Below the pieces are notes generated by a model. That model saw nothing but the letters and a program-made list of their open reading frames with translations, was not told the DNA's origin and searched no databases. Both the position numbers and the translations under genes were made by a program. From contig JANXWY010000486.1 in the NCBI GenBank assembly GCA_025350905.1, forward strand, positions 1 to 45,742: DNA of 45,742 nt, given 5' to 3'. Positions 3,726 to 27,908 of the stretch are shown piece by piece. Origin of the DNA: Verrucomicrobiota bacterium. GTDB lineage: Bacteria > Verrucomicrobiota > Verrucomicrobiia > Limisphaerales > JADLHS01. The stretch's first letter is position 1. Every line of letters starts with the position of its first letter.

Positions 3726-4298
3726 TCACGGTTTGAACAAACGATAGAACCTGGTGGGCAACGCCACGGGAACCACAATGGGATTCGTCGCGCCACTGGG
3801 GGAGTTCGTCCAATCCGGTGCATTCAACAGAGCCGTTTGTTGCAATACAAAGCCTGGGGTATTTGGCGTCCACGAAATCGAAGCATTGCCAGGAGTGGCG
3901 GGAACAATCGTGAGGGTGGGTGCGCCGGTGACTTGCACCGCTGTCGGCAACGCCCAGAATCCGCCGATAACCGAGAACTGTCCATTGGTCATCGGCCCGC
4001 TCGCATCCGGCTGGCCAATCGTCCCGCTCACCGAATAAACGCCGCCGGTGCTCGTGCCGCCACCACCCGCGACTTTGAACCAGTCAATGGCGTATTGGGC
4101 TTGGGCCGCGATCGCCGTTGTCAGGAACACAAACCCAACGATGAGTCGCCGACCCGATCTGACGGGCGCCAACGCTCGGGCGCGTTGAGCTGCCAGGTGT
4201 CGCCGGCCCCACACCGAAAGTGTCGCCGCGCCACCGCCCTCCATGCCGCTTCGCGTTTGCCCTTGGCCATTCTCTCTTCGCTCGTTTTGTGAGTTCAT
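3726..4298 (-). CDS. Verrucomicrobial exported hypothetical protein with GFWA and RFYR motifs
   Basis: This 190-residue protein overlaps the end of the preceding gene by ATGA (4295-4298), which suggests translational coupling. It has an unusually long, Arg-rich N-terminal extension of about 50 residues before a hydrophobic signal (LIVGFVFLTTAIAAQAQ). The extension may be an extended signal peptide, or the true start may be internal. The body contains IDWFKVAGGGGTSTGGVYSV, GTIGQPDAS and VIGGFWAL, a pattern I know from many uncharacterised Verrucomicrobia and Planctomycetes proteins. It ends in a short Ig-like segment and the tail DWTNS...TRFYRLFKP. A gap of 37 bases separates it from the GloVer protein downstream. 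No enzymatic motif is visible. Confidence 0.75.
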   Translation of the reverse strand: MNSQNERRENGQGQTRSGMEGGGAATLSVWGRRHLAAQRARALAPVRSGRRLIVGFVFLTTAIAAQAQYAIDWFKVAGGGGTSTGGVYSVSGTIGQPDASGPMTNGQFSVIGGFWALPTAVQVTGAPTLTIVPATPGNASISWTPNTPGFVLQQTALLNAPDWTNSPSGATNPIVVPVALPTRFYRLFKP

Positions 4299-6265
4299 TG
4301 GTTGTCTCCCTTCATTTTGTGGTTTAGCAGATATTCAAGTTTTTCCAAGCGGGTTTTCAAGTCCGCATTTTCCAATTCGAGTTTCTGAATTCTGCCATCT
4401 GCTTTCTGCCGTCCGCCTTCCACCTTCTCATTCAGCCCTTGAATGGCCGCCAGCGCCACGCCGTCGGCGTCCACGGTGGCAATGTGTTTGTCATCGGTGC
4501 CGGTGCTGAAAGCGGCATGAAAATCCTGCGCCATCGGGCCGACGTGCCGGACCGCCGTGTCGGTCTTGAAGTTCCATTCCAGGATCGGCAGCGCGGCGAC
4601 TTTCTCCAGGATGACGCGCGGCTCCACCGGTTTGAAGTGCTCCTTGAGGTTGCGGTCGCTGCTCGGGTTGAACGAAGTCGCCGACCAGTTGCCGTTCGCA
4701 TCGAGCGCCGCGACCCAGCTCGCCGCATTGCCGAACCGCGCGATCAGGCCCGTGCCCTGCGTCGAAACGCTCAGCGCCCCCTGGGCCGCATTGCCGCTGG
4801 CCACGACCCGCAAAGCGGGGCTGCTGTTGGCGGCGTTGTTCAGGTTCTCAAAGTAGGCCACCGAGTCGTTAAAGTTGCCGCTGTTCTTCGTGACCCGGAC
4901 GTCCAGTCCGCCATTGCCGGAAATCACGCCGGTTGCATTCAGCGGGCCGTAGAAGTGGCCGGCGTAACCGCTCTGGCTGGAGCCCAGCACGCCATCGCCG
5001 GTTCTGGATTCGCCGCCGATGCCAAAGCCGCTGCCGCTCAAACCGTACACGCCCCCGTTCCCGCCCACATCCGAACTGGCGCCGCCATTGATCCCCAGCA
5101 CGGCGATGTTGCCGCCGCTGTCCCCGCGCACGGCATGACCGTAGGCATTAGTCGCCTGCACCCCGGCATCACTGGAAATCAAACCCGAAGCCCGAACCCT
5201 GCCGTAGAAGTGACCGGCATAACCACTCTGACTCGAGCCCAGCACCCCATCGCCGGTGGTGGATTCGCCGCCGATGCCAAAGCCGCTGCCACTCAAACCG
5301 TACACGCCCCCGTTCCCGCCCACATCCGAACTGGCGCCGCCATTGATCCCCAGCACGGCGATGTTGCCGCCGCTGTCCCCGCGCACGGCATGGCCGTAGG
5401 CATTAGTCGCCTGCAATCCGGCATCACTGGAAATCAAACCCGAGGCCCGAACCTTGCCGTAGAAGTGACCGGCGTAACCGCTCTGGCTGGCGCCCAGCAC
5501 GCCATCGCCGGTGGTGGATTCACCGCCGATGCCAAAGCCGCTGCCACTCAAGCCGTACACGCCGCCGTTCCCGCCCACCTCGGAGCTGGCGCCGCCATTG
5601 ATCCCCAGCACGGCGATGTTAGCACCGCTGTCCCCGCGCACCGCATGGCCGTAAGCGTTCGTACCGTAAAGCGACGCACCGGAGAAGCCGAAGCCGTAAA
5701 CCCCGCTGGTTTGCCCGCCGAGGGCCCCGATATTCCCGGAGGTACTTATTCCCACCACGCTTCGATCCGCGGCGCTCCCCTGCAAACCGGGACCACCGCC
5801 GGTGTTGGTCGCGGCGATGAGCGGCCCCGGACTGTTGCTGGTCACGAACGAAGGTCCGGGCGGCCCCGGAAGGCCGGGGTTGCCCGAGGCGGCGTACAGC
5901 GCATACGGCGTCGCCGTGAGCGGCTGCCGGGGCGAGAGCGGGGTGAAGTTGGCAGCGCCGTTGGTGCGCGCGCCGATCTCCATGGCGCGCGGGCTGCCAT
6001 TGAATACGCCCGCCCCGAAATCGAGCGTCAAGGTGAACAGACCATTGGTGATCGACACGGCGGAGTTGGTAACAGCGACCCCCACCTGGCTGCCGCCGGT
6101 GGCGGCGTCGAAGAGGGTGAATTTCAAGTCGTACGAGCCGTTGGCGCCGGCCCCGTTGTCCATGAGCCGTCCTTGGTAGGTGAACGCCGTGCCCTGGGCA
6201 AAAGCTGGAAGGCAGAGGGCGGAAAGCAGAGGGCCGAGAGCGGTGAGTTTGAGCATGGTTCTCAT
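4295..6265 (-). CDS. Surface fibre protein with C-terminal S74 intramolecular chaperone and 85-residue repeats
   Basis: This 656-residue protein has a signal peptide (LTALGPLLSALCLPAFAQ) and a conserved N-terminal beta domain beginning GTAFTYQGRL and ending near LSPRQPLTATPYALYA. Next come a short Pro-Gly stretch and nearly three copies of an 85-residue repeat (AYGHAVRGDS, GGNGGVYGLSGSGFGIGGES, SGYAGHFYG). The C-terminus is a peptidase S74 chaperone domain: SDRNLKEHF supplies the Ser and Lys expected for self-cleavage, followed by GPMAQDF, DADGVALAAIQGLNEKV and a coiled coil. In phage tail spikes this domain drives trimer folding and then cuts itself off. The start at 6265 lies 3 bases after the upstream stop; a second ATG three codons in (MLKL) is also possible. 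Probably a trimeric surface fibre. No other phage genes are nearby. Confidence 0.85.
   Translation of the reverse strand: MRTMLKLTALGPLLSALCLPAFAQGTAFTYQGRLMDNGAGANGSYDLKFTLFDAATGGSQVGVAVTNSAVSITNGLFTLTLDFGAGVFNGSPRAMEIGARTNGAANFTPLSPRQPLTATPYALYAASGNPGLPGPPGPSFVTSNSPGPLIAATNTGGGPGLQGSAADRSVVGISTSGNIGALGGQTSGVYGFGFSGASLYGTNAYGHAVRGDSGANIAVLGINGGASSEVGGNGGVYGLSGSGFGIGGESTTGDGVLGASQSGYAGHFYGKVRASGLISSDAGLQATNAYGHAVRGDSGGNIAVLGINGGASSDVGGNGGVYGLSGSGFGIGGESTTGDGVLGSSQSGYAGHFYGRVRASGLISSDAGVQATNAYGHAVRGDSGGNIAVLGINGGASSDVGGNGGVYGLSGSGFGIGGESRTGDGVLGSSQSGYAGHFYGPLNATGVISGNGGLDVRVTKNSGNFNDSVAYFENLNNAANSSPALRVVASGNAAQGALSVSTQGTGLIARFGNAASWVAALDANGNWSATSFNPSSDRNLKEHFKPVEPRVILEKVAALPILEWNFKTDTAVRHVGPMAQDFHAAFSTGTDDKHIATVDADGVALAAIQGLNEKVEGGRQKADGRIQKLELENADLKTRLEKLEYLLNHKMKGDNQ
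4948..5663. repeat. Tandem 255-bp DNA repeat, about 2.8 units, inside the fibre gene
   Basis: The phrase ccgtagaagtg followed by the same long segment recurs at 4948, 5203 and 5458, a constant 255-base period (85 codons). Units differ by scattered single bases, so they are recent but not identical copies. The period is a multiple of three, so unequal recombination would lengthen or shorten the fibre without breaking the frame. Confidence 0.9.
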
Positions 6266-6268
6266 GAG

Positions 6269-8587
6269 TTAATTCTGGTGGGTTGAGAGTTTGGCTAGGA
6301 GCAGTTTGATTTCGAAAAGCTCGCGCTTCAACTGTTCATTTTCCGATTCGAGTTTCTGAATTCTGCCTTCCGCTTTCTGATTTCCGACTTCCACCTTTTC
6401 ATTCAACCCCTGGATGGCCGCCAGCGCCACGCCGCCTTCGTCAATCGGCGCGATGTGCTTGTCGTCCGTGCCCACGTTGAACGCAGAGTAAAAATCCTGC
6501 GCCATCGGACCGATGTGTCGCGTGTCAGCGTCTGTTTTATAGCTCCAGGCTGCCAACGGCAACTGGCTGACCTTGGCCAGAATTTCCGCCGAGCTGATTG
6601 CGACGAAATGCTCTTTGGCATTGCGGTCACTGTTGTTATTGAACGTCCCGGTCACGGTCACGGTGGTGGGGGTCCACTGCACGGCCAGGTGTTCCGTGCC
6701 GAATTGTTCGGTGGCCAACGCTCCGCCGCTGAACCCGAACAGCACGGGACCGTCAATGGTGCTGATGCCGGCAAAGGGTCGGCCGCTGCCATACCAACCC
6801 AAGCCATGTTGATTGTCGCCCTTGAACCAGACATTGGTGTTGTTAATTCGCACGCCGCCAGTGGCCGCCAACTCGGAGCTAAAGGTTTTAGCACCGGTGA
6901 AAGTTTGAGCGCCCGCCAACAGCGCCACGTTGGCGGAGAGCCGCGCATCGGCCAAAGTGCCGCTGGAAATATTCGCCGCATTGAGGCTGGTCAAACTCGC
7001 GCCGCTGCCGGTGAAACTATTGCCGGCGTTGTTCAAGGTCACCGCGCTCGAGTAAGTGCCGGACAACACTCCGCTGGGAACTGTTCCGCTGGATAGATTA
7101 CCCGCGCTCAAACTGGTCAGGGCTGCGCCGCTGCCGGCAAATCCATTCGCCGTCACGGTGCCGTTGACGTCGAGTGCCGTGGCGGGGTTATTTTTCCCGA
7201 TGCCAACGCCACCTTGCGCGCGGATGAGGAATTGATCGCTCAAGGTCGAGGCGAAGTCTGCATTTTGTGAATCGGCCCAAACGAACGCACCTTGGTGATA
7301 GGCTTTGGCGCGTCGGCCGGCGACCAGCGTCCAGGAATTCGTTGAAGAGGAAGCATCGCCCGTAGCGGTAGAAAATGGGCCGCTAGCAGTGGTGTTATTT
7401 CCCATCGCAGTGGAATATGGGCCGCTAGCAGTGGTGTTATTTCCCATCGATGTGGAATATGGGCCGCTGGCGGTGGTGTTGAACCCGATTGCGGTAGAAT
7501 GATGGCCGTCGGCTTTTGAATTATGCCCCATCGCGACAGAGTATTGACCACTGGCGATCGTGTAATACCCGCCCGCCGAGGAATGCTCGCCGCCGGCAAT
7601 ATTGTCTGAACCCCCGCCGATGAAGGAATAGGCGTTAGAAATCGAGTTGTTCTGGCCCCCGGCAATGACCGACTGCCAAGCGTTGCTCATTATCAAATTC
7701 TGCCGGCCGTTGACGATTACGGAATGATCCGCGCCAAACTGAATCCTGTTCCCACTTCCGCCACCGATACTGCTGAAGTCAGCCGAAATCTGGTTCGAAG
7801 AGGGGTTGCCCAAGAAGATAGTTGCGCCGCCGCCAGCGATTACAGCGCCCCTTACACCGGCATCAATCATGTTGACCGGCGATCCACCGACGATATTTGG
7901 CGAATCCGAGCTATTGGTCATTAAAAGTAATGCCCGCTGGCCATTGACCCGGATTTCTACAGCCTGATTGTTAGTGCTGCCGAAAAATTGTCCGCCGGAA
8001 ACATTGTTGCCGCCCAGATTCCAGAATGTTGTGGCGTCCAAACCGCCGAGCGTGGCGGCATTCACATTGGTCAGGTTGGCGCCGTTGCCGGTGTAGCTGG
8101 TCGCCGAAACGGCTCCGGAAAAATTGGGGCTGGCGGGCAACGACGAATTCGAGAGGATCCCACCGAGTTGCGCGGCGGGCAGTACCCCCGTCAAGTTGCT
8201 CGCCGTCTCGGCAAAAATGGCAGACGGCGTGGGGGTCAGGGTTTGCAACGGGCTCAAAACCGTGTAACCACTGCCGCCGTTGGTGCGCACGCCCACTTCC
8301 AGCCAGTTGGTGCCACCGATGAATATGCCCGCGCCAAAATCAATCGTCGTGGTGAACAGGCCGTTGCCCGCGGGCACGGAATTGGTCAGGTAGCTGGCGC
8401 CGACTTGAAAGCTGCCGTAAGGATCGTTGTAGAGCTTGAAACGGAAATCATACCGGCCATTCGCCGGATTCGCGCCGTCGTTTAGCCGGCCCTGATACGT
8501 GAATGCGGTGCCTTGGGCATGACTGGTTGAGAGTCGAGCGCTGGTGACCGATAGCAACAGCATTGTAACGACGAGTTTGTTTCGCAT
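6269..8587 (-). CDS. Surface fibre protein with YadA-like head repeats and C-terminal S74 chaperone
   Basis: This encodes 772 residues from the ATG at 8587. I chose this start because the signal peptide (MRNKLVVTMLLLSVTSARLS) begins there, although the frame is open to 8884. The order is: the same N-terminal domain as the next gene (GTAFTYQGRLND ... LSPLQTLTPTPSAIFAE), a beta-rich stalk (LTGVLPAAQLGG), then head repeats of the Hep/Hag or YadA type (SVAMGHNSKADGHHSTAIGF, then YSTSMGNNTTASGP copies). GIGKNNPATALDVNG motifs follow, and finally an S74 domain (NNSDRNAKEHF, GPMAQDF, GVALAAIQGLNEKV) with a C-terminal coiled coil. It probably forms a trimeric fibre whose chaperone removes itself. No YadA-type membrane anchor is present, so attachment is unclear. 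It is the first gene of the four-gene set. Confidence 0.85.
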   Translation of the reverse strand: MRNKLVVTMLLLSVTSARLSTSHAQGTAFTYQGRLNDGANPANGRYDFRFKLYNDPYGSFQVGASYLTNSVPAGNGLFTTTIDFGAGIFIGGTNWLEVGVRTNGGSGYTVLSPLQTLTPTPSAIFAETASNLTGVLPAAQLGGILSNSSLPASPNFSGAVSATSYTGNGANLTNVNAATLGGLDATTFWNLGGNNVSGGQFFGSTNNQAVEIRVNGQRALLLMTNSSDSPNIVGGSPVNMIDAGVRGAVIAGGGATIFLGNPSSNQISADFSSIGGGSGNRIQFGADHSVIVNGRQNLIMSNAWQSVIAGGQNNSISNAYSFIGGGSDNIAGGEHSSAGGYYTIASGQYSVAMGHNSKADGHHSTAIGFNTTASGPYSTSMGNNTTASGPYSTAMGNNTTASGPFSTATGDASSSTNSWTLVAGRRAKAYHQGAFVWADSQNADFASTLSDQFLIRAQGGVGIGKNNPATALDVNGTVTANGFAGSGAALTSLSAGNLSSGTVPSGVLSGTYSSAVTLNNAGNSFTGSGASLTSLNAANISSGTLADARLSANVALLAGAQTFTGAKTFSSELAATGGVRINNTNVWFKGDNQHGLGWYGSGRPFAGISTIDGPVLFGFSGGALATEQFGTEHLAVQWTPTTVTVTGTFNNNSDRNAKEHFVAISSAEILAKVSQLPLAAWSYKTDADTRHIGPMAQDFYSAFNVGTDDKHIAPIDEGGVALAAIQGLNEKVEVGNQKAEGRIQKLESENEQLKRELFEIKLLLAKLSTHQN

Positions 8588-8640
8588 AGTGTTTCTTTTT
8601 TGGATTTGGATTCTAAGAGTTAAGTGGCAATCAATCGGGC

Positions 8641-8919
8641 TTACGGCGCGTTCACGCGATACAATCGTGCGGGCTCGGTGGCCGTCACCGCGCGACGCCA
8701 ACTGCCATCCGGCGGCTGCGTCGGCACTCTGGCAGGGAACCAGGAATTGGCGACCGGGCAGGTGCTGGATGAACCGAAGCTGGCGAAAGCCAAAAGGCAG
8801 CCGACGGTGAAGTTGAATGAGACCGTGAGGAAAGAGAGAAGCAGCCGCAGCCCGGATCGGCGTCGCCAATACGCAATATCCCATAGGGTACTCTCCCTCT
8901 GATGATGAACGGGATGCAC
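8641..8919 (-). CDS. Possible small exported protein or 3' relic ending in ARLYRVNAP
   Basis: A GTG-started frame of 92 codons contains one hydrophobic stretch (LRLLLSFLTVSFNFTVGCLL) and ends in SWRRAVTATEPARLYRVNAP. That end resembles the terminal W...RFYR motif of the exported proteins at 1193, 3726 and 36059. It may be a small secreted protein, or the remnant of a larger gene whose 5' part was lost. It sits 53 bases upstream of the fibre operon on the same strand. No clear ribosome binding site was seen. Confidence is low because the frame is short. Confidence 0.3.
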   Translation of the reverse strand: MHPVHHQRESTLWDIAYWRRRSGLRLLLSFLTVSFNFTVGCLLAFASFGSSSTCPVANSWFPARVPTQPPDGSWRRAVTATEPARLYRVNAP

Positions 8920-17141: not shown

Positions 17142-18218
17142 CTAGATCCGTTGACCGAGCCAGTAGGCCGAGAGATTCCCGCAACCCTTGGCGTCCACGC
17201 GGTGGGCGGTTTCAAAATGATATTTGCCTTTCAGCCGTTCCTGCGTGGCCGTCGCGACTTGAATCCGTCCCGCGGTCGCCGTGGATTCCAGGCAGCAGGC
17301 GAGGTTGACGGTTTCGCCCCAAATATCGTAGGCGAATTTCTTGCGCCCGATTACACCGGCGATCACCGGGCCCGTGCTGATGCCAATCCGGATCCGAATG
17401 GAAGTATCATACTGCTGGTTGAGTCGCTCGACTTCATCCCGGAGATCAATGGCCAGTTGGGCGATGGCTTCGGCGTGGTCGGGTTGGGGGGCAGAGATTC
17501 CGCCGGCCACCATGTACGCATCGCCAATGGTCTTGATTTTCTCCAGGCCGTGATGTTCCACCAAGGAATCAAATGCGGAAAAAATCTCGTTCAAGAGTTG
17601 GACAATCTCACCCGGGTCAATATTGGCGGACAAAGAAGTGAATCCAACCAGATCGGCGAGGAGCACGGTGGCATCCGTGTGGCCGTCGGCAATGTTGGTC
17701 TCTCCATTTTTCATCCGTTCGGCGATGGCTTTGGGGAGAATGCTCAGCAGCAACTGTTCGGACCGAGCCTGTTCCCGTTGCAATCGATCATGGAGTTGAT
17801 TGGCATGAACCGCGTTGCCCACCCGGAGGATCACGTCCTGGATATCCACCGGTTTGTTGAGGAAGTCGTTCGCTCCGGCCTGAATGCCCAGGAGGCGGTC
17901 GCCGCGTTCGGACAGCGCGGTGACCATCAGAATCGGAAGATGCGCGGTCCGGGCATCCTGGCGCAACCGGCGGCAGACTTCGAGCCCGTCCAGCTTGGGC
18001 ATCATCAGGTCCAAGAGGATGACATCGGGCGGACGCGCGGCAATTTTCTGCAACGCTTGCAGGCCGTTTTCGGCCTCGGCGACTTCGTAGCCGCGCGCTT
18101 CCAACGGGTCGCGCAGGAGGGTGCGGTTTTGTTCTTCGTCATCCACGACCAGAACAAAGCCGAGGGAAGCGGTGGCCCCGTTGGCCGGGAGTTTGGGGAT
18201 TAGGATTTCATTTTGCAT
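17142..18218 (-). CDS. Receiver-domain class III adenylate/guanylate cyclase
   Basis: This 358-residue protein starts with a complete receiver domain (residues about 15-135: VLVVDDEEQNR, VILLDLMMPKLDG with phospho-Asp, MVTALSE, FLNKPV). A short helical linker leads to a class III nucleotide cyclase (about 175-345). Metal-binding Asps are in LLADLVGFTSLS and KTIGDAYMVAGG; Lys in EKIKTIGD and Asp in YDIWGE favour ATP as substrate. In the final motif, VNLACCLES, Cys stands where class III cyclases normally have the transition-state Arg (NLAxR), so activity may be reduced or absent. The ATG at 18218 lies 13 bases after the preceding receiver gene, which excludes the longer frame. Likely the output of the upstream kinases. 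Confidence 0.88.
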   Translation of the reverse strand: MQNEILIPKLPANGATASLGFVLVVDDEEQNRTLLRDPLEARGYEVAEAENGLQALQKIAARPPDVILLDLMMPKLDGLEVCRRLRQDARTAHLPILMVTALSERGDRLLGIQAGANDFLNKPVDIQDVILRVGNAVHANQLHDRLQREQARSEQLLLSILPKAIAERMKNGETNIADGHTDATVLLADLVGFTSLSANIDPGEIVQLLNEIFSAFDSLVEHHGLEKIKTIGDAYMVAGGISAPQPDHAEAIAQLAIDLRDEVERLNQQYDTSIRIRIGISTGPVIAGVIGRKKFAYDIWGETVNLACCLESTATAGRIQVATATQERLKGKYHFETAHRVDAKGCGNLSAYWLGQRI

Positions 18219-18231
18219 AAAACTTAAGGGG

Positions 18232-18627
18232 TTAATGGGCGAGCAGGTGCCCGTTGGCCACGGCAATTAATTTGGTGATGGTGGCGCAGAAGGTCCGGGT
18301 ATCGATCGGCTTGGTCAGATACCCATCGCAGCCCGCATTCAACGCGGCTTCCTCGTCGCCTTTCATGGCGTTGGCCGTGAGCGCGACCACGGTCAGGTGG
18401 TGCGTCGCGGGATCGGCTTTCAATATTTTGGTCGCGGACAAACCGTCCATGCCGGGGAGGCTGACATCCATCAGCACCAGGTCCGGCAGGAGGACGCGCG
18501 CCAGGCGCAGGCCTTCCTCCGCCGTTTGCGCCGAACCAACCAGGCAGCCGTTTGCTTCCAACAAGTCAGTGACCAACTCCAGGTTCAACAGGTTGTCCTC
18601 AATGATGAGAATTCGATTTCGCTTCAT
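18232..18627 (-). CDS. Stand-alone response regulator receiver (DivK-like)
   Basis: This 131-residue protein is a single receiver domain: ILIIEDNLLNLELV (acidic pocket), LVLMDVSLPGMDGL (phospho-Asp), VVALTANAM (Thr) and GYLTKPID (Lys), all key residues intact. There is no output domain, as in DivK or Spo0F relay proteins. It overlaps the stop of the MASE1 hybrid kinase by ATGA (18624-18627) and is followed after 13 bases by the receiver-cyclase, so the three are almost certainly co-transcribed. A phosphate-shuttle role between hybrid kinase and cyclase is inferred from this order. Confidence 0.92.
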   Translation of the reverse strand: MKRNRILIIEDNLLNLELVTDLLEANGCLVGSAQTAEEGLRLARVLLPDLVLMDVSLPGMDGLSATKILKADPATHHLTVVALTANAMKGDEEAALNAGCDGYLTKPIDTRTFCATITKLIAVANGHLLAH

Positions 18628-21600
18628 AGGCAGGCTTCGGGGCTGACCGCCTCGTCGTCTAGTTCATCCAATCGCTCCAATTCGGCGAGCAGGCTTCCCC
18701 GTTCCGTCTTGGACGTAATCGCCTGGACGTGGCCGGCCAAATGTTGGCGTTCCGCTTCCGTGAGAACGGTGCCGGTCTGGATCAGAATGGGGATCGCCTT
18801 GGTTCGGGAATTGGCCCGTAATTGTTCGACGACCTTGCCTCCGTCGAACTCGGGCATGCTGAAATCCAGAATGATCACGTCCGGGTGATGCCGTGTGGCC
18901 AGGGCCACGCCTTGGCGGCCCCCGTCCGCCCGCAGCACCCTGAATCCGGCTTGCAGGAGCGTCTTGGTCAGCAATTCGAGCAACGCCGGTTCATCGTCAA
19001 TAATCAGCACCGTCTTGAGTTCCTTCCCGGTGGTTTTGCCGGAGCGCCGGATGGCATCCACGAGTCGAAAATTCAGCCGCCCCGGCGCCGGCCGTTCCTT
19101 GCCGAATAAACGGAACGTCGGTCGGCCCGGGTCCCCGGCCGCAAAAATGACGAGCGGAATGCGGGCCGGCAGGATCGAGCGGTCCGTGGCCAATTCCCGT
19201 TCGCCGGCTGGATCCAGCAAATTGGAGTCAATGACCACGGCATAAAACCATCGGGCTTGCACTGCCCCGAGAATGGCCGCGACCCGCGAAACCACCGCCA
19301 CCTCGTAGCCCACCTCGATCAGGTAACCCGCGGCTCGTTCCTGGCTGGCGGCATCGTCCGTCACGAGCAACACGCGCGGGCGGAGGGTGTCGTCCCGCGC
19401 TTCGGGCTGGTCATCCGAGAGGCGCGGTTTGGCGAGGGCCTGCGGGAGCGGAATCAGAAAAGTGAACGTGCTGCCGCGGCCTTCGACCCCTTCACTCTCC
19501 ACCCAGATGCGTCCGCCGTGCATTTCGACGAGCCGCTTGGTTAGGGCCAGTCCCAGCCCGGTGCCTTGTTGTTGTCGGCCGTACGACGAGTCGACCTGCT
19601 CGAACTCCTGGAAAACGCGCTCCTGGTCGCGGGCCTGAATGCCAATGCCCGAGTCCTTAACGGCGACCACCAGGGCTTCGCCCGCCAGCGTCGTATCGGC
19701 GCTGGCGACGTCTGGGATCCCCGCGGTCACCCAGACGTTCCCGCCGTCCGGGGTAAACTTGATCGCATTGCTGAGGAGGTTATACATGATCTGCTTGAAT
19801 TTGGCCTCGTCGGCCAACAGCGAGGGCAGCTCCGGGTTCACCGCGAACTCGAGGTTGATATTTTTTTTGTTGGCGAGCGTTTTGACGATGGTGTGCACCT
19901 CAGCCAACGCTTTGGCCACGGCGAACGGGTGCGGCATCAGCTCAAGCCGCCCGGCCTCCACCTTGGCCAGATCGAGGATATCGTTGATGAGCTGGAGCAG
20001 GTGGCGGCCACTATTCAGGATGTTGTTGCTGTATTTGAGTTGCCGGTCGTTGAGTTCGCCAAACGTTTTGTCGGCGAGAATTTCCGAAAAGCCGATGATG
20101 GCATTGAGCGGCGTGCGCAGCTCGTGACTCATGTTGGCGAGGAACTGGCTCTTGGCGAGATTCGCGGCTTCGGCGGCGTCCTTGGTTTGTTGCAGGGCGG
20201 CCTCGGCTTGCCGGCGTTGGGTAATGTCGAGAAAGATGCCGTCGGCACACAGCCGGCCGGCGTGCGGTCGCGTGCCCAGCGCCCGGTCGTGCAACCAGAT
20301 CCAGGTGCCGTCTTGGCGGCAGATCCGGTATTCAACGTCGAATTTTTCGCCGTCCGAAAATAGTTTCTGATAGGCCGCGGCGACCCGCGCGGCGTCTTCC
20401 GGGTGCACCCGATGCCACCAAAGTTGTCCGCCGAGGAGTTCCTCGGCGCCATAGCCCAGCACTTTGACAACGTTGCCGCCGATATAGACCAGATCCCGGT
20501 TGGAATCGGCGGTCCAGACCACATCGGGAATATGGTCAATGAGCGAACGATATTTCTCTTCGCTCGCCCGCAACGCCTGTTCGGATTGTTTGCGCGGCGT
20601 GATGTCCTGAATCACCGCTTGGAATTCCCGGGTGTCGCCTTGTTCCTGAAACAAGCGCCGGACCCGGTATTGATGCCAGACCACCTGATTCGCCGACGAC
20701 CGGAGGCGATGGTCGAACGTGACCACCGGCTCATCCGCCGGCAGGGAGTTGATATAGCTTAAGGGGACGGCGGCATCCTCCTTGGAGAGGGTGTGGAAGA
20801 AATTGGTGCCGATCAGTGCTTCCTTGGATTTGCCATGGAAACGAGCGAACGCCTCGTTGACAAACGTGAGCTGCCCGCCCGGCTTAAACCGGCAAATCAA
20901 ATCCGTCTGATCTTCCACCACCGCGCGAAAACGCTTTTCACTTTCCGACACGGCCCGTTCGGCGGCGCGGCGTTCGGCGGCGGCGGCGGCCAGCAGCATA
21001 TTGGTGACCGCCAGAATCCCGATGTAACTGCCGATCAGCATCAGACTATCCTGTTCGGTATGGGTCACGAACGGCCCATTTTTTTCGAGCAAGGAGTGGA
21101 TGGCCAGCGCCGACACCAGCAACGTGCCCGAGGTGGCGCCCCGCTGGCCAAATCGCAATGCCCCCCAAACGAGAAAGGGAAACGGGAGGTAGGCCAGCGG
21201 ATAATTTTGAATGCCATGTACAAACCAGGAATTGAAGGAGATCAGGGTGCCCCCTACCAGGCCGACGCTACAGACAACGGCTTCCACCAATAGCCGGATA
21301 TTCCAACGCGTGGCCGACGGCGTGGCCCAGGTGATGATGAAGGGGGCCACCACCAGCCCCGCCAGCGCATTGGGCACCCACCACATCAGGGTGGTGGGAA
21401 AAAGATCGTCCCACGCCACCGCGCCGCCATAGGCCAGACTCACCACATTGAAGGCCGCATTCACGGTGGTGCCGAGGAAGCACGCCAATCCGATGTAGCC
21501 GGTCACATCCCGCGTGCGCTCCATGGCATTGTCGAAGCCGATTAATTTTCGCAGCAGGAAAGCGCAGACGATCGCGCCCATGGTGTTGCCAATCGCCGTT

Positions 21601-21857
21601 CCGAGCGTAAAGAATCCAAACGGCGTTCCGTTCATGAAGGAGAACAGCACCGCGCCCAACGCCACGCCCGGCCAAAAGCGGTAACCGAACAGCAGGATGG
21701 CGGCGAGTGCGATGCCCGCGGGCGGCCAGACCAGCGCGACACTGCCGGAGAGAAACGAGGACTCTTTGCCCACCAGTCCCCCGATAAAATAGAGGGCGAT
21801 GAGGATGACCACACGGGTGAACGTGGTCAGGTTGTGATCGCGGAAGGGTTTCGTCAT
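18624..21857 (-). CDS. MASE1-PAS-PAS hybrid histidine kinase with two receiver domains
   Basis: This 1077-residue membrane kinase has, in order: a MASE1 integral-membrane sensor with about eight hydrophobic segments (residues 1-290; ALVWPPAGIALAAILLFGYR, WWVPNALAGLVVAP), two PAS domains (about 300-430 and 430-555), a HisKA helix with His near 577 (NMSHELRTPLNAII), a HATPase domain (NLLSNAIKFTPDGG, VKDSGIGI, GTGLGLALTKRLV) and two receivers. The first receiver (about 840-950) is degenerate: it keeps VVIDSNLL but has no clear Lys-Pro motif. The second (about 955-1075) has VLIIDDEP and VIILDFSMPEFDG, with SKTERG in place of KP. The ATG at 21857 starts just before MASE1; the frame is open further up. 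Confidence 0.92.
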   Translation of the reverse strand: MTKPFRDHNLTTFTRVVILIALYFIGGLVGKESSFLSGSVALVWPPAGIALAAILLFGYRFWPGVALGAVLFSFMNGTPFGFFTLGTAIGNTMGAIVCAFLLRKLIGFDNAMERTRDVTGYIGLACFLGTTVNAAFNVVSLAYGGAVAWDDLFPTTLMWWVPNALAGLVVAPFIITWATPSATRWNIRLLVEAVVCSVGLVGGTLISFNSWFVHGIQNYPLAYLPFPFLVWGALRFGQRGATSGTLLVSALAIHSLLEKNGPFVTHTEQDSLMLIGSYIGILAVTNMLLAAAAAERRAAERAVSESEKRFRAVVEDQTDLICRFKPGGQLTFVNEAFARFHGKSKEALIGTNFFHTLSKEDAAVPLSYINSLPADEPVVTFDHRLRSSANQVVWHQYRVRRLFQEQGDTREFQAVIQDITPRKQSEQALRASEEKYRSLIDHIPDVVWTADSNRDLVYIGGNVVKVLGYGAEELLGGQLWWHRVHPEDAARVAAAYQKLFSDGEKFDVEYRICRQDGTWIWLHDRALGTRPHAGRLCADGIFLDITQRRQAEAALQQTKDAAEAANLAKSQFLANMSHELRTPLNAIIGFSEILADKTFGELNDRQLKYSNNILNSGRHLLQLINDILDLAKVEAGRLELMPHPFAVAKALAEVHTIVKTLANKKNINLEFAVNPELPSLLADEAKFKQIMYNLLSNAIKFTPDGGNVWVTAGIPDVASADTTLAGEALVVAVKDSGIGIQARDQERVFQEFEQVDSSYGRQQQGTGLGLALTKRLVEMHGGRIWVESEGVEGRGSTFTFLIPLPQALAKPRLSDDQPEARDDTLRPRVLLVTDDAASQERAAGYLIEVGYEVAVVSRVAAILGAVQARWFYAVVIDSNLLDPAGERELATDRSILPARIPLVIFAAGDPGRPTFRLFGKERPAPGRLNFRLVDAIRRSGKTTGKELKTVLIIDDEPALLELLTKTLLQAGFRVLRADGGRQGVALATRHHPDVIILDFSMPEFDGGKVVEQLRANSRTKAIPILIQTGTVLTEAERQHLAGHVQAITSKTERGSLLAELERLDELDDEAVSPEACL

Positions 21858-22086
21858 GGCTCGGTGGCGTGTCGCAGCGGCGCGCTTTTCGCTAAACCCA
21901 GCACGGCCGTGCCGGCCCGCGCGAAAATCCCGTTCCCTTCCGTTCCGGGCCCTGCCCGCTGGCCGGGCCGGGCGAGTAGCTGGGGCGAGCGCGGCGAAGG
22001 CCACCGGGTTGGGGACTCACCGACCCCGCTGGTGCCGGTAATTCCGGAGGGGGCCTGTTTCCAGCTACGGTTTGAGCGATGCCGAA

Positions 22087-24810
22087 TCATGATTCACGAT
22101 GGGCGTATTCCCGTGCGGCGGGTTGGGAATCCTGGTCCAGACAGCGGCGGATCCCCTCCAGCAAGGTGTTGGAAAAAAACGGTTTTTGCAGAAACAGGCT
22201 CGCGGATTGCCGACAAAACTCGGTGTCATGCGTGGCGATTTCCGAGCTGTAACCACTCATGAAAACGACTTTCAGCGTCGGGGCATGGGCCCGTAATCGC
22301 TCCACTAATTCGCTGCCCGTCATCCCATCGGGCAGGACGGCGTCCGTCAGCACCAGATCAAAATTCGCCTTCCGATTCTGCCAGATTCCGAGCGCGTCAT
22401 GGCCGGACGCCGCCTCGGCCACCTGATAGCCCGCGCTTTCGAGGATGCGGCGGGTCGACTGACGGACCGCGTGGTCATCTTCCACCAGGAGAATTCGTTC
22501 GTGGCCGACGTGCCGGAACGGCAGCGTGACCTTGAGTTCGGACGCCTCGGTCGGCGCGGGGAGGGCCGGCAGGAAGATGCGGAAGGTGCTCCCCGAGCCG
22601 AGGTGCGTGGCCACCTCGATCCAGCCTTGGTGTTGCTTGACAATGCTGTAGACGGTGGCCAGCCCCAGCCCGGTGCCTTTTCCCACTTCCTTCGTGGTGT
22701 AGAACGGTTCAAAAATGTGCGCCACATGTTCCGGCGAGATGCCCATGCCAGTGTCGGTCACACTGAGCGCGATGAACTGGCCGGGGCGCGCCTCGGGATG
22801 GAAGCGCCGGGCCTCGGCGCCCAGCTCCATCGACTCGGTGGTGAGGAGCAACTGGCCTCCGCCCGGCATGGCGTCCCGGGCGTTAATCACCAGGTTGAGC
22901 AGCACCTGCTCCAGCATCCCGACATCAGCCTGAACGAACGATGGACTGCGGGAGTAGTTGCATTGCAAATTTATGTCCTCGCCAATCAGGCGGTGGATCA
23001 TTTTGGTGATATTGACCACCGCGTCGTTGAGATTGAGCGGACGCAGCCGGACGGCCTGTTTGCGGCCAAAAACCAGCAGTTGGCGGGTCAGATTCGCGGC
23101 GCGTTCCGAGGCGGCGATGACTTGCTTGAGATAATCCGTAGCGGTCTCACCGAGCTGTGGGGCATCCATCAATACCAGTTCGGTGTTGCCGCGGATGACG
23201 GCCAGCATGTTGTTGAAGTCGTGAGCCACGCCGCCAGCCAGCAGGCCGATGGCCTCCATTTTTTGAGCCTGGCGGAATTGATCCTCCAATAGTTTCCGTT
23301 CGGTAACGTCGCGCAGGAGCACCAGCACCATCGGCTTTGCATGGAGGAGGATGCGGGTGAGGTCCGCATGCACCGGGGTAAAAGTGGCGTTCGTATTGGA
23401 AATTTCGGCATCATAGCCGCCCAACCGCCCCGGCCCTTCGCTGGCCGCAAATTCATCGAAAATCTTTCCTACTCCCGCCAGCTGTTCGGAAGCGCCAAAC
23501 TTCATGCCAACAATTTCGCGGCGGGGCCGGCTCAACAATACTTCCGCCTGCTTATTCGTGTCGATCGTGCGCCGGGATACAATGTCCACCAGGAAGGCCG
23601 CATCGCTCAGACTTTCGAACAAGTGCCGATATTTGTGCTCGCTCTCCCGCATCGTCTGCTCCGCTTGCTTGGCCGCCGTGACGTCGCGGAAGTTCCAGAC
23701 GCGACCATAATAGCGTTGGTCCGGGGCAATGATCGGGGCGGTGTAGCAGTCGAAGGTTCGGCCGTCGAGTAACCCAACCTCCTCCCGGCTGCTTTCCGTC
23801 CGGTGTTGATGGAGATACTTAATCCGTTTTTGAAAGCCCCGTGCATCGGCCACCTGGTCCGTCCCGAACTGCAACACCGCGGCGGCGGCTTGGGCCTGGA
23901 CCAACGTCGGCGGCAGGCCCCACATCTGGACCAGCCGCTGGTTGCACGACACGACCTTGCCGCCTTCATCCACCACCAGAATTCCGTCAATGCCAACCTC
24001 TTGTTCGGTGGCCAGGATGGTATTTCTAAACTTCAATTCCTCTTCCGCCCGTTTCCGTTCCGAAATGTCCTGCTTCACGGCGATGAAGTGCGTGATTTCT
24101 CCGCCCGCATCCAGGACGGGCGTGATGGTTTGTTCCTCCGGATAGTGACTGCCGTCCTTGCGGCGGTTGATCATCTCGCCCCGCCAGACCTTGCCCGCCA
24201 GAATGGTTTGCCACAGCTCATCATAAAAAGCGGCATCGTGGCAGCCAGACTTTAGCAGGCGCGTGGCCTGGCCGATTACTTCCCCGGCGCGATAGCCGGT
24301 GAGGTCGAGCAAGGCCTGATTGACCCACTCAATGCGACCGTTGCGATCAGCGATGACGATGGCATTGGCGGCCGCTTCCAGGGCCGTGGTGCGCAGTCCG
24401 AGCAACCGTTCGGTGTGTTGCTTGTGTTTGCGAATCTGGACTTCCCGCAACTCGCGCTCCACCGCTGGCACCAGCCGGGCCAGGTTGCCTTTCATGACGT
24501 AATCGTGGGCGCCGGCCTGCATTGCCTCGACGGCGCTTTCCTCTCCGATGGTGGCGGAAACATAGATGAAGGGCAGGTTTGGATCACTTTCCTTCACGAT
24601 GTTTAGCGCGGCGCGGCCGCTGAATTCCGGCAGCGTGAAATCACAAAGCACCACATCCCACAACGTGTGCCGCAGCGCGGCCTTCAAAGCGTCGGCGGTC
24701 TCGACCCGTTCGCAGGTGACCGCGTATTTTGCCCGCTCCAACTCCATCACGATCAACGCGGCGTCATCCGTGTTGTCCTCCACCAACAGAACGTATAAGG
24801 GTTTGATCAT
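22087..24810 (-). CDS. REC-PAS-PAS-PAS-kinase-REC hybrid histidine kinase
   Basis: This 907-residue protein has no membrane segment, so it is cytosolic. It starts with a receiver (YVLLVEDNTDD, VVLCDFTLP with phospho-Asp near 57, YVMKGNL), then has three PAS domains (about 130-255, 260-385 and 385-500; each ends in a DITERK/DVTAAK-type linker). The HisKA box GGVAHDFNNMLAVI (His near 529) is of the NtrB-like HDFNN class. The HATPase domain (NLVINARDAMPGGG, VTDTGMGIS, FYTTKEVGKGTGLGLATV) is followed by a second receiver (ILLVEDDHAVR, VLTDAVLPDGMTG, FLQKPF). The ATG at 24810 begins the first receiver; the frame extends further up without homology. It can both receive and donate phosphate in the relay. 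Confidence 0.92.
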   Translation of the reverse strand: MIKPLYVLLVEDNTDDAALIVMELERAKYAVTCERVETADALKAALRHTLWDVVLCDFTLPEFSGRAALNIVKESDPNLPFIYVSATIGEESAVEAMQAGAHDYVMKGNLARLVPAVERELREVQIRKHKQHTERLLGLRTTALEAAANAIVIADRNGRIEWVNQALLDLTGYRAGEVIGQATRLLKSGCHDAAFYDELWQTILAGKVWRGEMINRRKDGSHYPEEQTITPVLDAGGEITHFIAVKQDISERKRAEEELKFRNTILATEQEVGIDGILVVDEGGKVVSCNQRLVQMWGLPPTLVQAQAAAAVLQFGTDQVADARGFQKRIKYLHQHRTESSREEVGLLDGRTFDCYTAPIIAPDQRYYGRVWNFRDVTAAKQAEQTMRESEHKYRHLFESLSDAAFLVDIVSRRTIDTNKQAEVLLSRPRREIVGMKFGASEQLAGVGKIFDEFAASEGPGRLGGYDAEISNTNATFTPVHADLTRILLHAKPMVLVLLRDVTERKLLEDQFRQAQKMEAIGLLAGGVAHDFNNMLAVIRGNTELVLMDAPQLGETATDYLKQVIAASERAANLTRQLLVFGRKQAVRLRPLNLNDAVVNITKMIHRLIGEDINLQCNYSRSPSFVQADVGMLEQVLLNLVINARDAMPGGGQLLLTTESMELGAEARRFHPEARPGQFIALSVTDTGMGISPEHVAHIFEPFYTTKEVGKGTGLGLATVYSIVKQHQGWIEVATHLGSGSTFRIFLPALPAPTEASELKVTLPFRHVGHERILLVEDDHAVRQSTRRILESAGYQVAEAASGHDALGIWQNRKANFDLVLTDAVLPDGMTGSELVERLRAHAPTLKVVFMSGYSSEIATHDTEFCRQSASLFLQKPFFSNTLLEGIRRCLDQDSQPAAREYAHRES

Positions 24811-24971
24811 GCTCGGGTCCCGTTCAGTCCTTGGCCTGGCCGCTCCCGCCCCGGCCGCAGGCGCGTAGTCCCCCCAGCAGGGCCTGGCCGCGGAACCCGA
24901 ATCCGCAGGATTCGTCCGCGCTTGCCGGCCCGCGCCGCGCGTCGGCTGGTGGGGCGCCAACCCGGCTGCGA

Positions 24972-27908
24972 TTAGTTGACCACCGCTGCGTCCCGGGGCT
25001 GGGATTCAGTCCGCCGCTGAAATGAAATGCGATTTTCAACGGGATCACCGTTGCGGAGGGCGATGGGGAGCAAAACGTGATTTTGATTTTCGTTTTCATG
25101 ATGCCTTTCTTCCGCCGGGGGATCGGTCGGTTTTTCCGTGAACCGGGACGGCAGTGTAAAATAAAAGGTCGCGCCCTTGCCGATTTGAGCTTCGGCCCAA
25201 ATCCGGCCGCCGTGCCGATGAACGATGCGGCGCACCGTCGCCAGGCCGATGCCGGTCCCGGGAAACTCCCGCGCCTTGTGCATTCGCTGGAAGGGACTAA
25301 AAAGTTTGCCCGCGTAAGCCAGGTCGAAGCCGGCGCCGTTATCGCGGACAAAGTAGACGGTCTCGCCCCCGCGTTCGGTCGAACCGAACTCCACCCGCGC
25401 CGTTACTTGTTTGCTGGTAAACTTCCACGCGTTTTCCAGCAAGTTTGTCAGGGCAATTCGCAGCAGGCCGACGTCGCCTTGTACCACCAGGTTGGCAACG
25501 CCGACGAATTCCACCGTATGGCCCGGCATCGTCAGTTTAACTTCATTGGCCACCACGCCGACCAGCGCGCTCAGGTCGAAGGGGGCGCGGCGCATTTGTT
25601 CCAGGGTAATCCGAGAGAGCATCAGCAAATCGGCAATGAGCTGGTCCATGCGTTGGGCCCCGGCCACGACGCGGCGCAAGCTGTCGCGGGCCTTCCCATC
25701 CAGCCGCTCCGCGTAATCTTCCAGTAACGCCCGACTGAAACCGTTGATCGCCCGGAGGGGCGATTGCAAGTCATGGGAGACGGAGTAGCAAAACGATTCG
25801 AGTTCTTGGTTGGCCGTATCCAGTTGGGTGGTTCTTTCCGCCACCCGTTGTTCTAATTCGGCGTTGAGTTGGCGGATTTCCGACTCCACCGCCTTTAACG
25901 TCGTGATATCGCGCGCGGTGGCAAAGACCCCCAGGGCATGACCGTGCGCATCCCGATAGACCGTCGCGTTGTAAAGGACGTCGGTGACACGACCGGAGAT
26001 GTGTCGGAGGGCCAGGGGATAATCGCGCACGAAGCCTTCCGAGAAGACGCGCTGGTAGCTCGCCCTTGCCTTCGCCGGTTCGGTGAAGTAATCCGAAAAA
26101 TCCGAGCCCAGGATTTGCTCGCGAGGAGCGCCGGTGGCCTGAACGGAGGCTTCATTCAAATCCGTGATCTTGCCTTCGGCGTTGATGGTCACCAGCGGGT
26201 CGAGGCTGGCCTCCAGGAGGCTGCGGGTATAGGTGGAGTAGGAACGCAATGCCTGCTCGGCTTGTTTGCGCTCGGTGATGTCTTGCACAAACACGACGGC
26301 GCCCGACTGACCCTGGTAAAGAATCGGGGAAGCGGTCGCCTCAACGGGGACGGACGAGCCGTCCACCCGCAGATAGACTTCCTCTTGCGGCGGGGCCACC
26401 CCGCGCTCGCCTTGAAACACTTTCGTGGCGCGCTGTTGGATGCTGGTGTGATAATCCGGGTGGATGCGCGAGAGGACGGGTTGGCCAACCAACTGGTCGG
26501 GGGTTTCGGCGCCCAGCAGGTGCAAGGCGGCGGGATTGAGGTACACAAACTTCATGTCCAAACTCACGAATACCGCCATCGACGCCCCTTCGACCACGGC
26601 TCGGAAGCGCGCTTCACTTTCGCACACGGCGGCTTCCGCTTGCAGCCGCTCGGTGATATCGCGCGCGGTGGCAAAAACGCCCAGCACCTGACTTTGCGCG
26701 TCCCGATAAATCGTGGCGTTGTAGAGGACGTGCATGGCGCGGCCGGAGACGTGTTGGATGGCCAACGGATAATCCCGGACGAAACCCTCGGAGAAGACGA
26801 GTTCATAACCGGCGCGCGCCTGCGCCGGCTCGGTGAAGTATTCGGCGAAGTCGGTGCCGATGAGCTGTTCGCGGGGTACCCCGGTGGCGTGCACGGAGGC
26901 CGCATTGACGTCGGTGATCACTCCCTCGGCGCTGATGGTGACGAGCGGGTCGAGGCTGGCCTCAAGGAGATTGCGGGCATACGCCGCGGCGGTGCGCAAG
27001 TCGGCCTCCGCCGACTGCCGTTTGCGAGCCGCGTCGATCAATTTTTCCTGAGTGGTCGCCAGCCATCCGAGCACGCTGTTTTCGCGACCCGCCGGGAGCG
27101 TGATCGTGGCCGCGAGATCCCCGCTACCAATCCGGGCGATCTGTTCATGGACCGCGTGGATGGGGCCGCCGAGCGTGTCGTGCAACGCCAGATAGGTGCG
27201 CCAAAGCATGAACATGAGTCCAAGACCCATGGCGCTGAAGGCACTCTTTAGAACGGTGGCCTGGGTTTCCGCGGTTCGGACCGCCGCGAGCGTGCGTCGA
27301 TCCACCAAAACGAAAAATTCGTCAATGGGCTGCATCATGCCGGCCTTGGCCTGATGATACTTGTCATCATAAAGCATCCGCTGCGCTTTGGCCCAGTTTT
27401 TCGCGGCGGCCGGCCCGGTGGTCTCCACCAGTTTCATCGCCTCGATTTCGGGAATGGTGAGCGCATCCGAATTCGCCTTGGCGGTCGCCAGTTTGCGGAA
27501 TTCCTCCTCCGTAAAACCCGACTGCCGCATCAACTCCAGCAGCGCGATCGTCTGACCATTGTTGCCGCGTGGCAGCCGCGCTCCGGGCAGGACCAGATCC
27601 CAATAGGGTCGCCAATAATTCTTGGGCCAGGGTTTCTTCCCGTCCCGGATGTCGAGCACCTCCTGGAATTGTTGCCGGTAGACCGGGTCACCGGTCGCCA
27701 CGTAGGTCCGAACCATACGGGTGAGGTCGTCACCGCTTTGACGTAATATGTCGGCCAGTTGATAGGATCGATACCGGAGTTTATGGGCGCGATCCAATTG
27801 CTTGACCGACCAGGTGTAGGCGGCAAAAGCGACGACCAGGAGGATGAGCAGGACCGCGGAGCTCAATAGATCGCGCGTGAACGGTCTGGATTTGATTGGG
27901 AGGCTCAT
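24972..27908 (-). CDS. Membrane histidine kinase with HAMP and three PAS domains
   Basis: This 978-residue protein has two membrane segments (about 14-33, LLSSAVLLILLVVAFAAYTW; and about 222-240, SAFSAMGLGLMFMLW) flanking a periplasmic sensor of some 190 residues, then a HAMP-type linker, three PAS domains (about 311-418, 425-550, 561-668), HisKA with His near 710 (SVSHDLQSPLRAINGFSRAL) and HATPase (NLLENAWKFT, VRDNGAGFD, FPGTGIGLATV). PAS 1 and PAS 3 are near duplicates. A tail of about 50 residues after the ATPase domain is Arg/Asn/Glu-rich with no known fold. GGAG lies seven bases before the ATG at 27908. It is the first gene of the signalling block; 161 bases separate it from the next. 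No receiver is attached, so it must signal to one nearby. Confidence 0.92.
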   Translation of the reverse strand: MSLPIKSRPFTRDLLSSAVLLILLVVAFAAYTWSVKQLDRAHKLRYRSYQLADILRQSGDDLTRMVRTYVATGDPVYRQQFQEVLDIRDGKKPWPKNYWRPYWDLVLPGARLPRGNNGQTIALLELMRQSGFTEEEFRKLATAKANSDALTIPEIEAMKLVETTGPAAAKNWAKAQRMLYDDKYHQAKAGMMQPIDEFFVLVDRRTLAAVRTAETQATVLKSAFSAMGLGLMFMLWRTYLALHDTLGGPIHAVHEQIARIGSGDLAATITLPAGRENSVLGWLATTQEKLIDAARKRQSAEADLRTAAAYARNLLEASLDPLVTISAEGVITDVNAASVHATGVPREQLIGTDFAEYFTEPAQARAGYELVFSEGFVRDYPLAIQHVSGRAMHVLYNATIYRDAQSQVLGVFATARDITERLQAEAAVCESEARFRAVVEGASMAVFVSLDMKFVYLNPAALHLLGAETPDQLVGQPVLSRIHPDYHTSIQQRATKVFQGERGVAPPQEEVYLRVDGSSVPVEATASPILYQGQSGAVVFVQDITERKQAEQALRSYSTYTRSLLEASLDPLVTINAEGKITDLNEASVQATGAPREQILGSDFSDYFTEPAKARASYQRVFSEGFVRDYPLALRHISGRVTDVLYNATVYRDAHGHALGVFATARDITTLKAVESEIRQLNAELEQRVAERTTQLDTANQELESFCYSVSHDLQSPLRAINGFSRALLEDYAERLDGKARDSLRRVVAGAQRMDQLIADLLMLSRITLEQMRRAPFDLSALVGVVANEVKLTMPGHTVEFVGVANLVVQGDVGLLRIALTNLLENAWKFTSKQVTARVEFGSTERGGETVYFVRDNGAGFDLAYAGKLFSPFQRMHKAREFPGTGIGLATVRRIVHRHGGRIWAEAQIGKGATFYFTLPSRFTEKPTDPPAEERHHENENQNHVLLPIALRNGDPVENRISFQRRTESQPRDAAVVN

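Follow-up and report, generated by a model that had tools for sequence, protein, structure and literature searches.

A receiver-cyclase gene at the end of a three-gene operon

The window analysed here is the whole 45,742-nucleotide stretch of DNA, which belongs to a draft genome in 489 contigs. A coding sequence on its minus strand (17142–18218; ATG at 18218, stop codon at 17142–17144) encodes a protein of 358 amino acids with two domains. The first is a receiver domain spanning residues 22–132 (17823–18155, minus strand; Response_reg, PF00072, E-value 5.1e-31, 107.6 bits) with the phospho-acceptor aspartate D70 (18009–18011, minus strand). The second is a class III cyclase domain spanning residues 180–354 (17157–17681, minus strand; Guanylate_cyc, PF00211, E-value 1.7e-54), which scores 184.7 bits against the PF00211 profile compared with a curated cut-off of 21.9. 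A predicted model of the receiver-cyclase has a mean pLDDT of 89.5 and aligns structurally with 5o5k_A, a bacterial adenylyl cyclase soluble domain, with a TM-score of 0.93 by target length and a Z-score of 28.0 over 215 residues (rmsd 1.9). The product of the gene is predicted to have a class III cyclase fold. A 350-amino acid open frame runs antisense to the cyclase gene (17151–18203, plus strand) and probably arises mechanically from GC-rich codon usage.

The cyclase gene is the last of an operon that consists of a hybrid histidine kinase gene, a single-domain receiver gene and the receiver-cyclase gene, in that order. The kinase ORF (18624–22004, minus strand), within which the true start may fall, has the Pfam domain order MASE1-PAS-PAS-HisKA-HATPase-REC. 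The single receiver (18232–18627, minus strand; PF00072, E-value 2.9e-25) overlaps the kinase gene by 4 bases, and the ATG of the cyclase gene lies 13 bases past the receiver stop codon. The receiver-cyclase has the features of a response regulator, namely a receiver domain with an acceptor aspartate (D70) and a histidine kinase encoded within its operon. The operon is directly preceded by genes for a further two large histidine kinases with PAS domains (957 and 978 amino acids; 22087–27908, minus strand), and related kinases are also found upstream of it in the close relatives L137–L141. Other minus-strand genes in the window encode a 993-amino acid protein with long collagen triple-helix repeats (29805–32786) and two proteins with Peptidase_S74 chaperone domains (4295–8884), one of which also carries YadA head repeats, resembling trimeric fibres or surface proteins.

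The transition-state arginine is replaced by cysteine

The arginine of class III cyclases contacts phosphate in the transition state. Alignment with HMMER placed this residue, as it occurs in the C2 domains of AC5, AC8 and AC9 (motif VN(L/V/I)ASRM), opposite C309 of the window's protein, which lies in the motif V304-N305-L-A-C308-C309-L-E-S. The codon is TGC (17292–17294, minus strand), one base from CGC. The other catalytic residues are all present, with their codons on the minus strand: the metal-binding aspartates D189 (17652–17654) and D233 (17520–17522), the substrate-base lysine K229 (17532–17534) and aspartate D298 (17325–17327), and the transition-state asparagine N305 (17304–17306). 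The earlier note, made from the sequence of the window, had described exactly this combination (cysteine in place of the class III arginine, a TGC codon one base from CGC, and metal aspartates and substrate lysine and aspartate kept), and each part of that description is confirmed. The window's protein therefore has the metal aspartates and the ATP-type Lys/Asp pair of a competent cyclase but lacks an intact Asn…Arg (NxxxR) pair. Class III adenylyl cyclases with an N-terminal receiver (PF00072 and PF00211) share its domain order, fold, metal aspartates, Lys/Asp pair and asparagine; it differs from receiver-class III cyclases in general by its cysteine, and its subfamily differs from them by the loss of the arginine in 9 of 23 members.

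Distribution and catalytic residues of the subfamily

This subfamily comprises 23 homologues with E-values of 1e-121 or better in 320 genomes of the order, and the next match has an E-value of 5e-100. No member was found outside the order at 1e-105 among 384 genomes of the class and 387 of the phylum, sets that partly overlap with the order set. Of the 12 genomes in the same family, the window's genome and G010 are the two with a member, and none is present in the five other genomes of the window's genus.

At the arginine site, the 23 members have R (14), Q (3), C (2), H (2), G (1) or L (1); L186, L028 and L029, whose alignments do not cover the site, were left out of this comparison. The earlier note had proposed an alignment of close homologues and had counted arginine in them, together with read evidence for CGC, against its reading; arginine is indeed found in 14 members, but nine others lack it. 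The phospho-acceptor D70 and the cyclase residues K229, D298, G232, W300 and G301 are invariant (23/23), D189 and D233 are each kept in 22 members, and N305 is kept in 21. Seven of the nine members without the arginine retain all of their other catalytic residues. Lesions also occur in members that keep it: in L138 the first metal aspartate is replaced by asparagine, in L145 the second is replaced by glutamate, and L140 is interrupted by an in-frame TAG. The asparagine of the NxxxR pair is broken in L150 and L157; in the active enzyme Ma1120, the available part of the report describes a natural replacement of this asparagine (PMC4215837). Overall, a lesion, meaning a changed catalytic residue or a stop codon, is present in 12 of 23 members, and 11 are fully canonical and stop-free; in-frame stops are absent from 22. 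The copy with the stop codon, L140, is located at 4831–5901 in its locus in genome G125.

We considered a special role for the vicinal pair C308-C309. Such a role is unsupported, because most subfamily members (18/23) have Cys308, and members without arginine have histidine, glutamine, glycine or leucine at site 309 as well as cysteine. No compensating basic residue was gained in the cyclase domains that lost the arginine. Site 275 is basic in all nine of these and in 9 of the 14 others, which is a weak difference.

The arginine was lost repeatedly

A protein tree was constructed from an alignment without the Asn and Arg columns, using ten rows from outside the subfamily as the outgroup (with L159 in place of its duplicate L132). 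This tree requires at least seven changes between arginine and other residues (7 to 8 across bootstrap trees), four of which are forced by well-supported branches alone, and a tree of the whole operon (kinase, receiver and cyclase) also requires at least seven (bootstrap 6 to 8), with three forced by supported branches; such counts do not separate loss from regain, and arginine is the outgroup state in nine of the ten rows. A single origin of the loss was rejected, with the nine members lacking arginine constrained to one clade (p-AU 7.3e-7).

The cysteine of the window's protein (L004) is private to its lineage, as the neighbouring L138, L139 and L144 all have arginine. The second cysteine, in L137, belongs to a genome of a different family, uses the same TGC codon and adjoins the arginine-bearing L139 in the operon tree (support 100/98). 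Placing L004 and L137 in one clade, as shared descent of the two cysteines would require, was rejected when the operon alignment was used (p-AU 1.05e-4) but not with the protein by itself (p = 0.073). Amino acid changes mapped on the operon tree number nine at site 309, two at N305, one each at D189 and D233, and zero at K229 and D298. A catalytic residue has been lost while the binding residues have stayed under constraint.

Codons and selection

The replacement codons at site 309 are TGC (two), CAT, CAC, CAG (three), GGG and CTG, all of which are one base from CGN. Seven of the nine are C-to-T or G-to-A outcomes of CpG, which suggests that CpG mutation may be behind those replacements. None of the replacements is favoured over the rest, and they therefore give no indication of a new catalytic residue. 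Arg309 varies like the loosely held arginine columns 42, 62, 245 and 275; R277 and R292 are nearly fixed.

The cyclase domain is under purifying selection. Its dN/dS (NG86) is 0.217 for L137/L139, 0.164 for L141/L142 and 0.139 for L004/L138, each a pair that includes a member without the arginine, and 0.09 to 0.17 for two pairs that keep it. We also compared the branch lengths of the cyclase and receiver domains on a fixed topology. The median cyclase/receiver ratio is 1.95 in lesion-bearing members and 1.10 in the others (p = 0.029, for a grouping that was chosen afterwards), and the highest ratio is that of the window's protein (3.95). Grouped by arginine loss alone, the faster evolution is not significant (2.0 where lost versus 1.46 where kept, p = 0.12). 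Together, the dN/dS values and branch-length ratios suggest that constraint has eased but not gone.

The operon is conserved around the altered cyclase

The arrangement of the operon is the same throughout the subfamily wherever the contigs reach. A homologue of the single receiver is directly upstream of the cyclase gene in 21 of the 22 other loci and a homologue of the kinase is upstream in 19; the one missing receiver and the three missing kinases all fall at contig ends. The His, N and G boxes of the kinase (histidine and ATP-binding) are kept wherever they are covered, as are the receiver aspartates. This suggests that the phosphorelay is intact while the output domain is without a catalytic residue. 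A search for a downstream gene that could be the target of the cyclase found none common to more than three subfamily loci.

The window's genome encodes two further class III cyclases with an intact NxxxR, in distant ORFs of 696 and 789 amino acids. It also has cNMP-binding domains in at least six ORFs. Since both groups remain, cAMP signalling as such is not lost.

Cyclases outside the subfamily

As controls, 80 loci from other bacteria were retrieved using six peptide patterns, one of which surrounds the second metal aspartate and none of which surrounds the arginine; weaker listed places without loci were left out of the comparison, and 24 of the 80 loci were used in alignment A1. These loci contain 85 cyclase ORFs, 84 of which have the residues DKDDNR, arginine included, and one of which has proline at the arginine site. 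L081 (start offset 2805), a cyanobacterial (Microseira) cyclase, has proline at this site and keeps all other catalytic residues.

Within the order, 79 receiver-type cyclases beyond the subfamily were compared, after the duplicates L159, L215 and L216 and three rows under 200 bits had been dropped. The arginine is lacking in 10 of the 79, compared with 9 of 23 inside the subfamily (Fisher p = 0.012), and it is the only residue lost in one of those 10 (L168, which has histidine), compared with seven of the nine inside (Fisher p = 0.0055); the rows are related, and both p-values are a guide only. Several receiver-cyclases of the same order are degenerate, with several catalytic residues changed in each (L019, L022, L032, L030/L214 and L194/L195/L199). 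The other receiver-cyclase of G125, L211, has glycine and glutamate at the metal sites and histidine at the arginine site. Pseudo-cyclases seem to have arisen repeatedly among the receiver-cyclases of this order.

Discussion

We interpret the product of 17142–18218, with moderate confidence based on its residues and relatives, as a putative pseudo-cyclase that would bind ATP-Mg and switch conformation as the output of a three-gene phosphorelay, in a subfamily where fast catalysis would be dispensable. The membrane MASE1 hybrid histidine kinase would pass phosphate to the single receiver, to the receiver of the receiver-cyclase, or to both, and the latter receiver would control a dimeric class III cyclase domain. 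With its transition-state arginine lost repeatedly and the residues for the adenine base and the metal-phosphate kept, this domain would serve as an output that senses nucleotide or binds a partner, and its cyclase activity would be a few percent of normal at most. The available portions of two reports put a size on the effect: replacing the arginine with alanine costs a mammalian cyclase approximately 100-fold (PMC5918993, citing Yan 1997), and bPAC R278A has approximately 2% of its dark activity left (PMC8522238). Mainly binding would therefore remain. For the window's protein, we infer ATP binding, a lack of useful catalysis and a regulatory output.

The earlier note had offered a choice between a recent inactivating change and a regulatory nucleotide-binding pseudo-enzyme. 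The pseudo-enzyme is favoured because eight other members, on several branches, are without the arginine, selection is purifying and the substrate pair is invariant; the cysteine itself is private to the window's lineage, but loss of the arginine is no one-off. Two observations count against a pseudo-cyclase. The cyclase domain has evolved faster in lesion-bearing members, most of all in the window's copy, which also fits slow decay, and the retention of all the other catalytic residues is also compatible with an enzyme that works weakly. It may also be that active members dominate the function of the family, given that 11 of 23 are fully canonical.

Degenerate GGDEF response regulators such as PopA likewise combine receiver control with a cyclase fold that has lost catalysis and become a binding or regulatory module, although they belong to another domain family (GGDEF, GTP). 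No paper using the term "pseudocyclase" was found in a literature search that had most subscription journals outside its reach. Natural losses of the class III arginine are already in print for NeoR and for cyclase-like proteins of Bacteroidetes. NeoR, a subunit of heterodimeric rhodopsin guanylyl cyclases, resembles the window's protein in having a class III domain without an intact NxxxR; the available text describes it as inactive alone, with a non-catalytic nucleotide site that affects the activity of the complex (PMC12264004). It differs, according to the same text, in forming a eukaryotic heterodimer, in having lost both the asparagine and the arginine (T455 and K459), in its GTP-type residues and in being no response regulator. 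Several of the Bacteroidetes proteins have Gln, His, Tyr or Cys for the phosphate-binding arginine (PMC4886424). Unlike the window's protein, they have a Glu plus Lys/Arg substrate pair and are read as likely guanylate cyclases, and the accessible part of that report does not interpret the replacements as repeated loss in one operon.

An alternative is that the protein is a dimmed but working cyclase, in which loss of the arginine is tolerated or even favoured, lowering cAMP output with receiver regulation intact. We consider this rather unlikely. It has a precedent in bPAC R278A, which at its approximately 2% activity has a light/dark ratio of 1330, similar to approximately 1630 in the wild type, so that regulation is intact in the part of the report available (PMC8522238). 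It also agrees with the retention of all other catalytic residues in seven of the nine members without arginine, and the cNMP-binding ORFs of the genome mean that cAMP can be read. However, a weak enzyme that is needed should not tolerate a broken metal aspartate (L138 and L145), a broken asparagine (L150 and L157) or a stop codon (L140). Furthermore, glycine and leucine occur among the replacements beside polar residues, and the genome has two more cyclases with NxxxR intact.

Neutral decay is also improbable in our assessment. Under this explanation, the cyclase output of the operon would be in the course of being lost in the order, and the arginine would go first because its CpG codon mutates fastest. 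The replacement codons (all nine one base from CGN, seven CpG-type), the resemblance of Arg309 to the four variable arginine columns, the TAG in one copy and the relatively fast cyclase domain of lesion-bearing members are all consistent with decay. Against it stand the five residues that are invariant in all 23 members, the 22 copies without an in-frame stop and the dN/dS of 0.14 to 0.22. There is also an excess of losses at the arginine: under equal drift at the six catalytic sites, at least 9 of 13 losses at this site has a p-value of 3.7e-5, and the p-value is still 0.02 under a threefold higher mutation rate for the arginine codon than for each other codon.

Class III active sites are shared between two chains, and a protein without the arginine could in principle supply the metal aspartates to a heterodimer in which another cyclase supplies the arginine. 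Mammalian C1 domains are of this kind: in our alignments AC5, AC8 and AC9 have His, Lys or Leu at the arginine position of C1, which is naturally without the arginine and keeps the metal aspartates like the window's protein. C1, however, is one half of a pseudo-heterodimer that receives its arginine from C2, and no such partner was found here. NeoR, which works in a heterodimer without its NxxxR, is a further example in the available text (PMC12264004). This explanation is very doubtful for the subfamily, because eight of the nine genomes without the arginine (six of the nine being at least 90% complete) have no second receiver-type cyclase above 100 bits, G144 being the exception. In addition, the only other cyclases of the window's genome are the distant ORFs of 696 and 789 amino acids, and the protein keeps its own substrate lysine and aspartate, which it would not need in that role. 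Finally, a wrong base from base calling or assembly, for which the single-base distance between TGC and CGC and the 489-contig draft leave room, is extremely improbable and unnecessary as an explanation: eight further genomes are without the arginine, their replacements comprise five different residues encoded by six different codons, and L137, from another family, also uses TGC at this position.

Returning to the pseudo-cyclase reading, a broader and more tentative version is that the whole family of phosphorelay outputs might use the class III cyclase fold for ATP-Mg sensing or switching, with catalysis optional and ATP recognition fixed. Parallel loss of catalysis, mostly via one CpG codon, would then have happened at least seven times, and the family would be a bacterial, class III counterpart of the degenerate GGDEF effectors. 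Pseudo-enzymes are usually viewed as single old losses, whereas this one operon family provides a series of losses of one residue in parallel, next to closely related sisters that keep the arginine. The cyclase domains of L137 (cysteine) and L139 (arginine), for example, are 89% identical. The role of the cyclase domain without catalysis can thus be tested on natural pairs. With a lesion in 12 of 23 subfamily members, receiver-cyclase genes that are annotated as adenylate cyclase in this order may not make cAMP.
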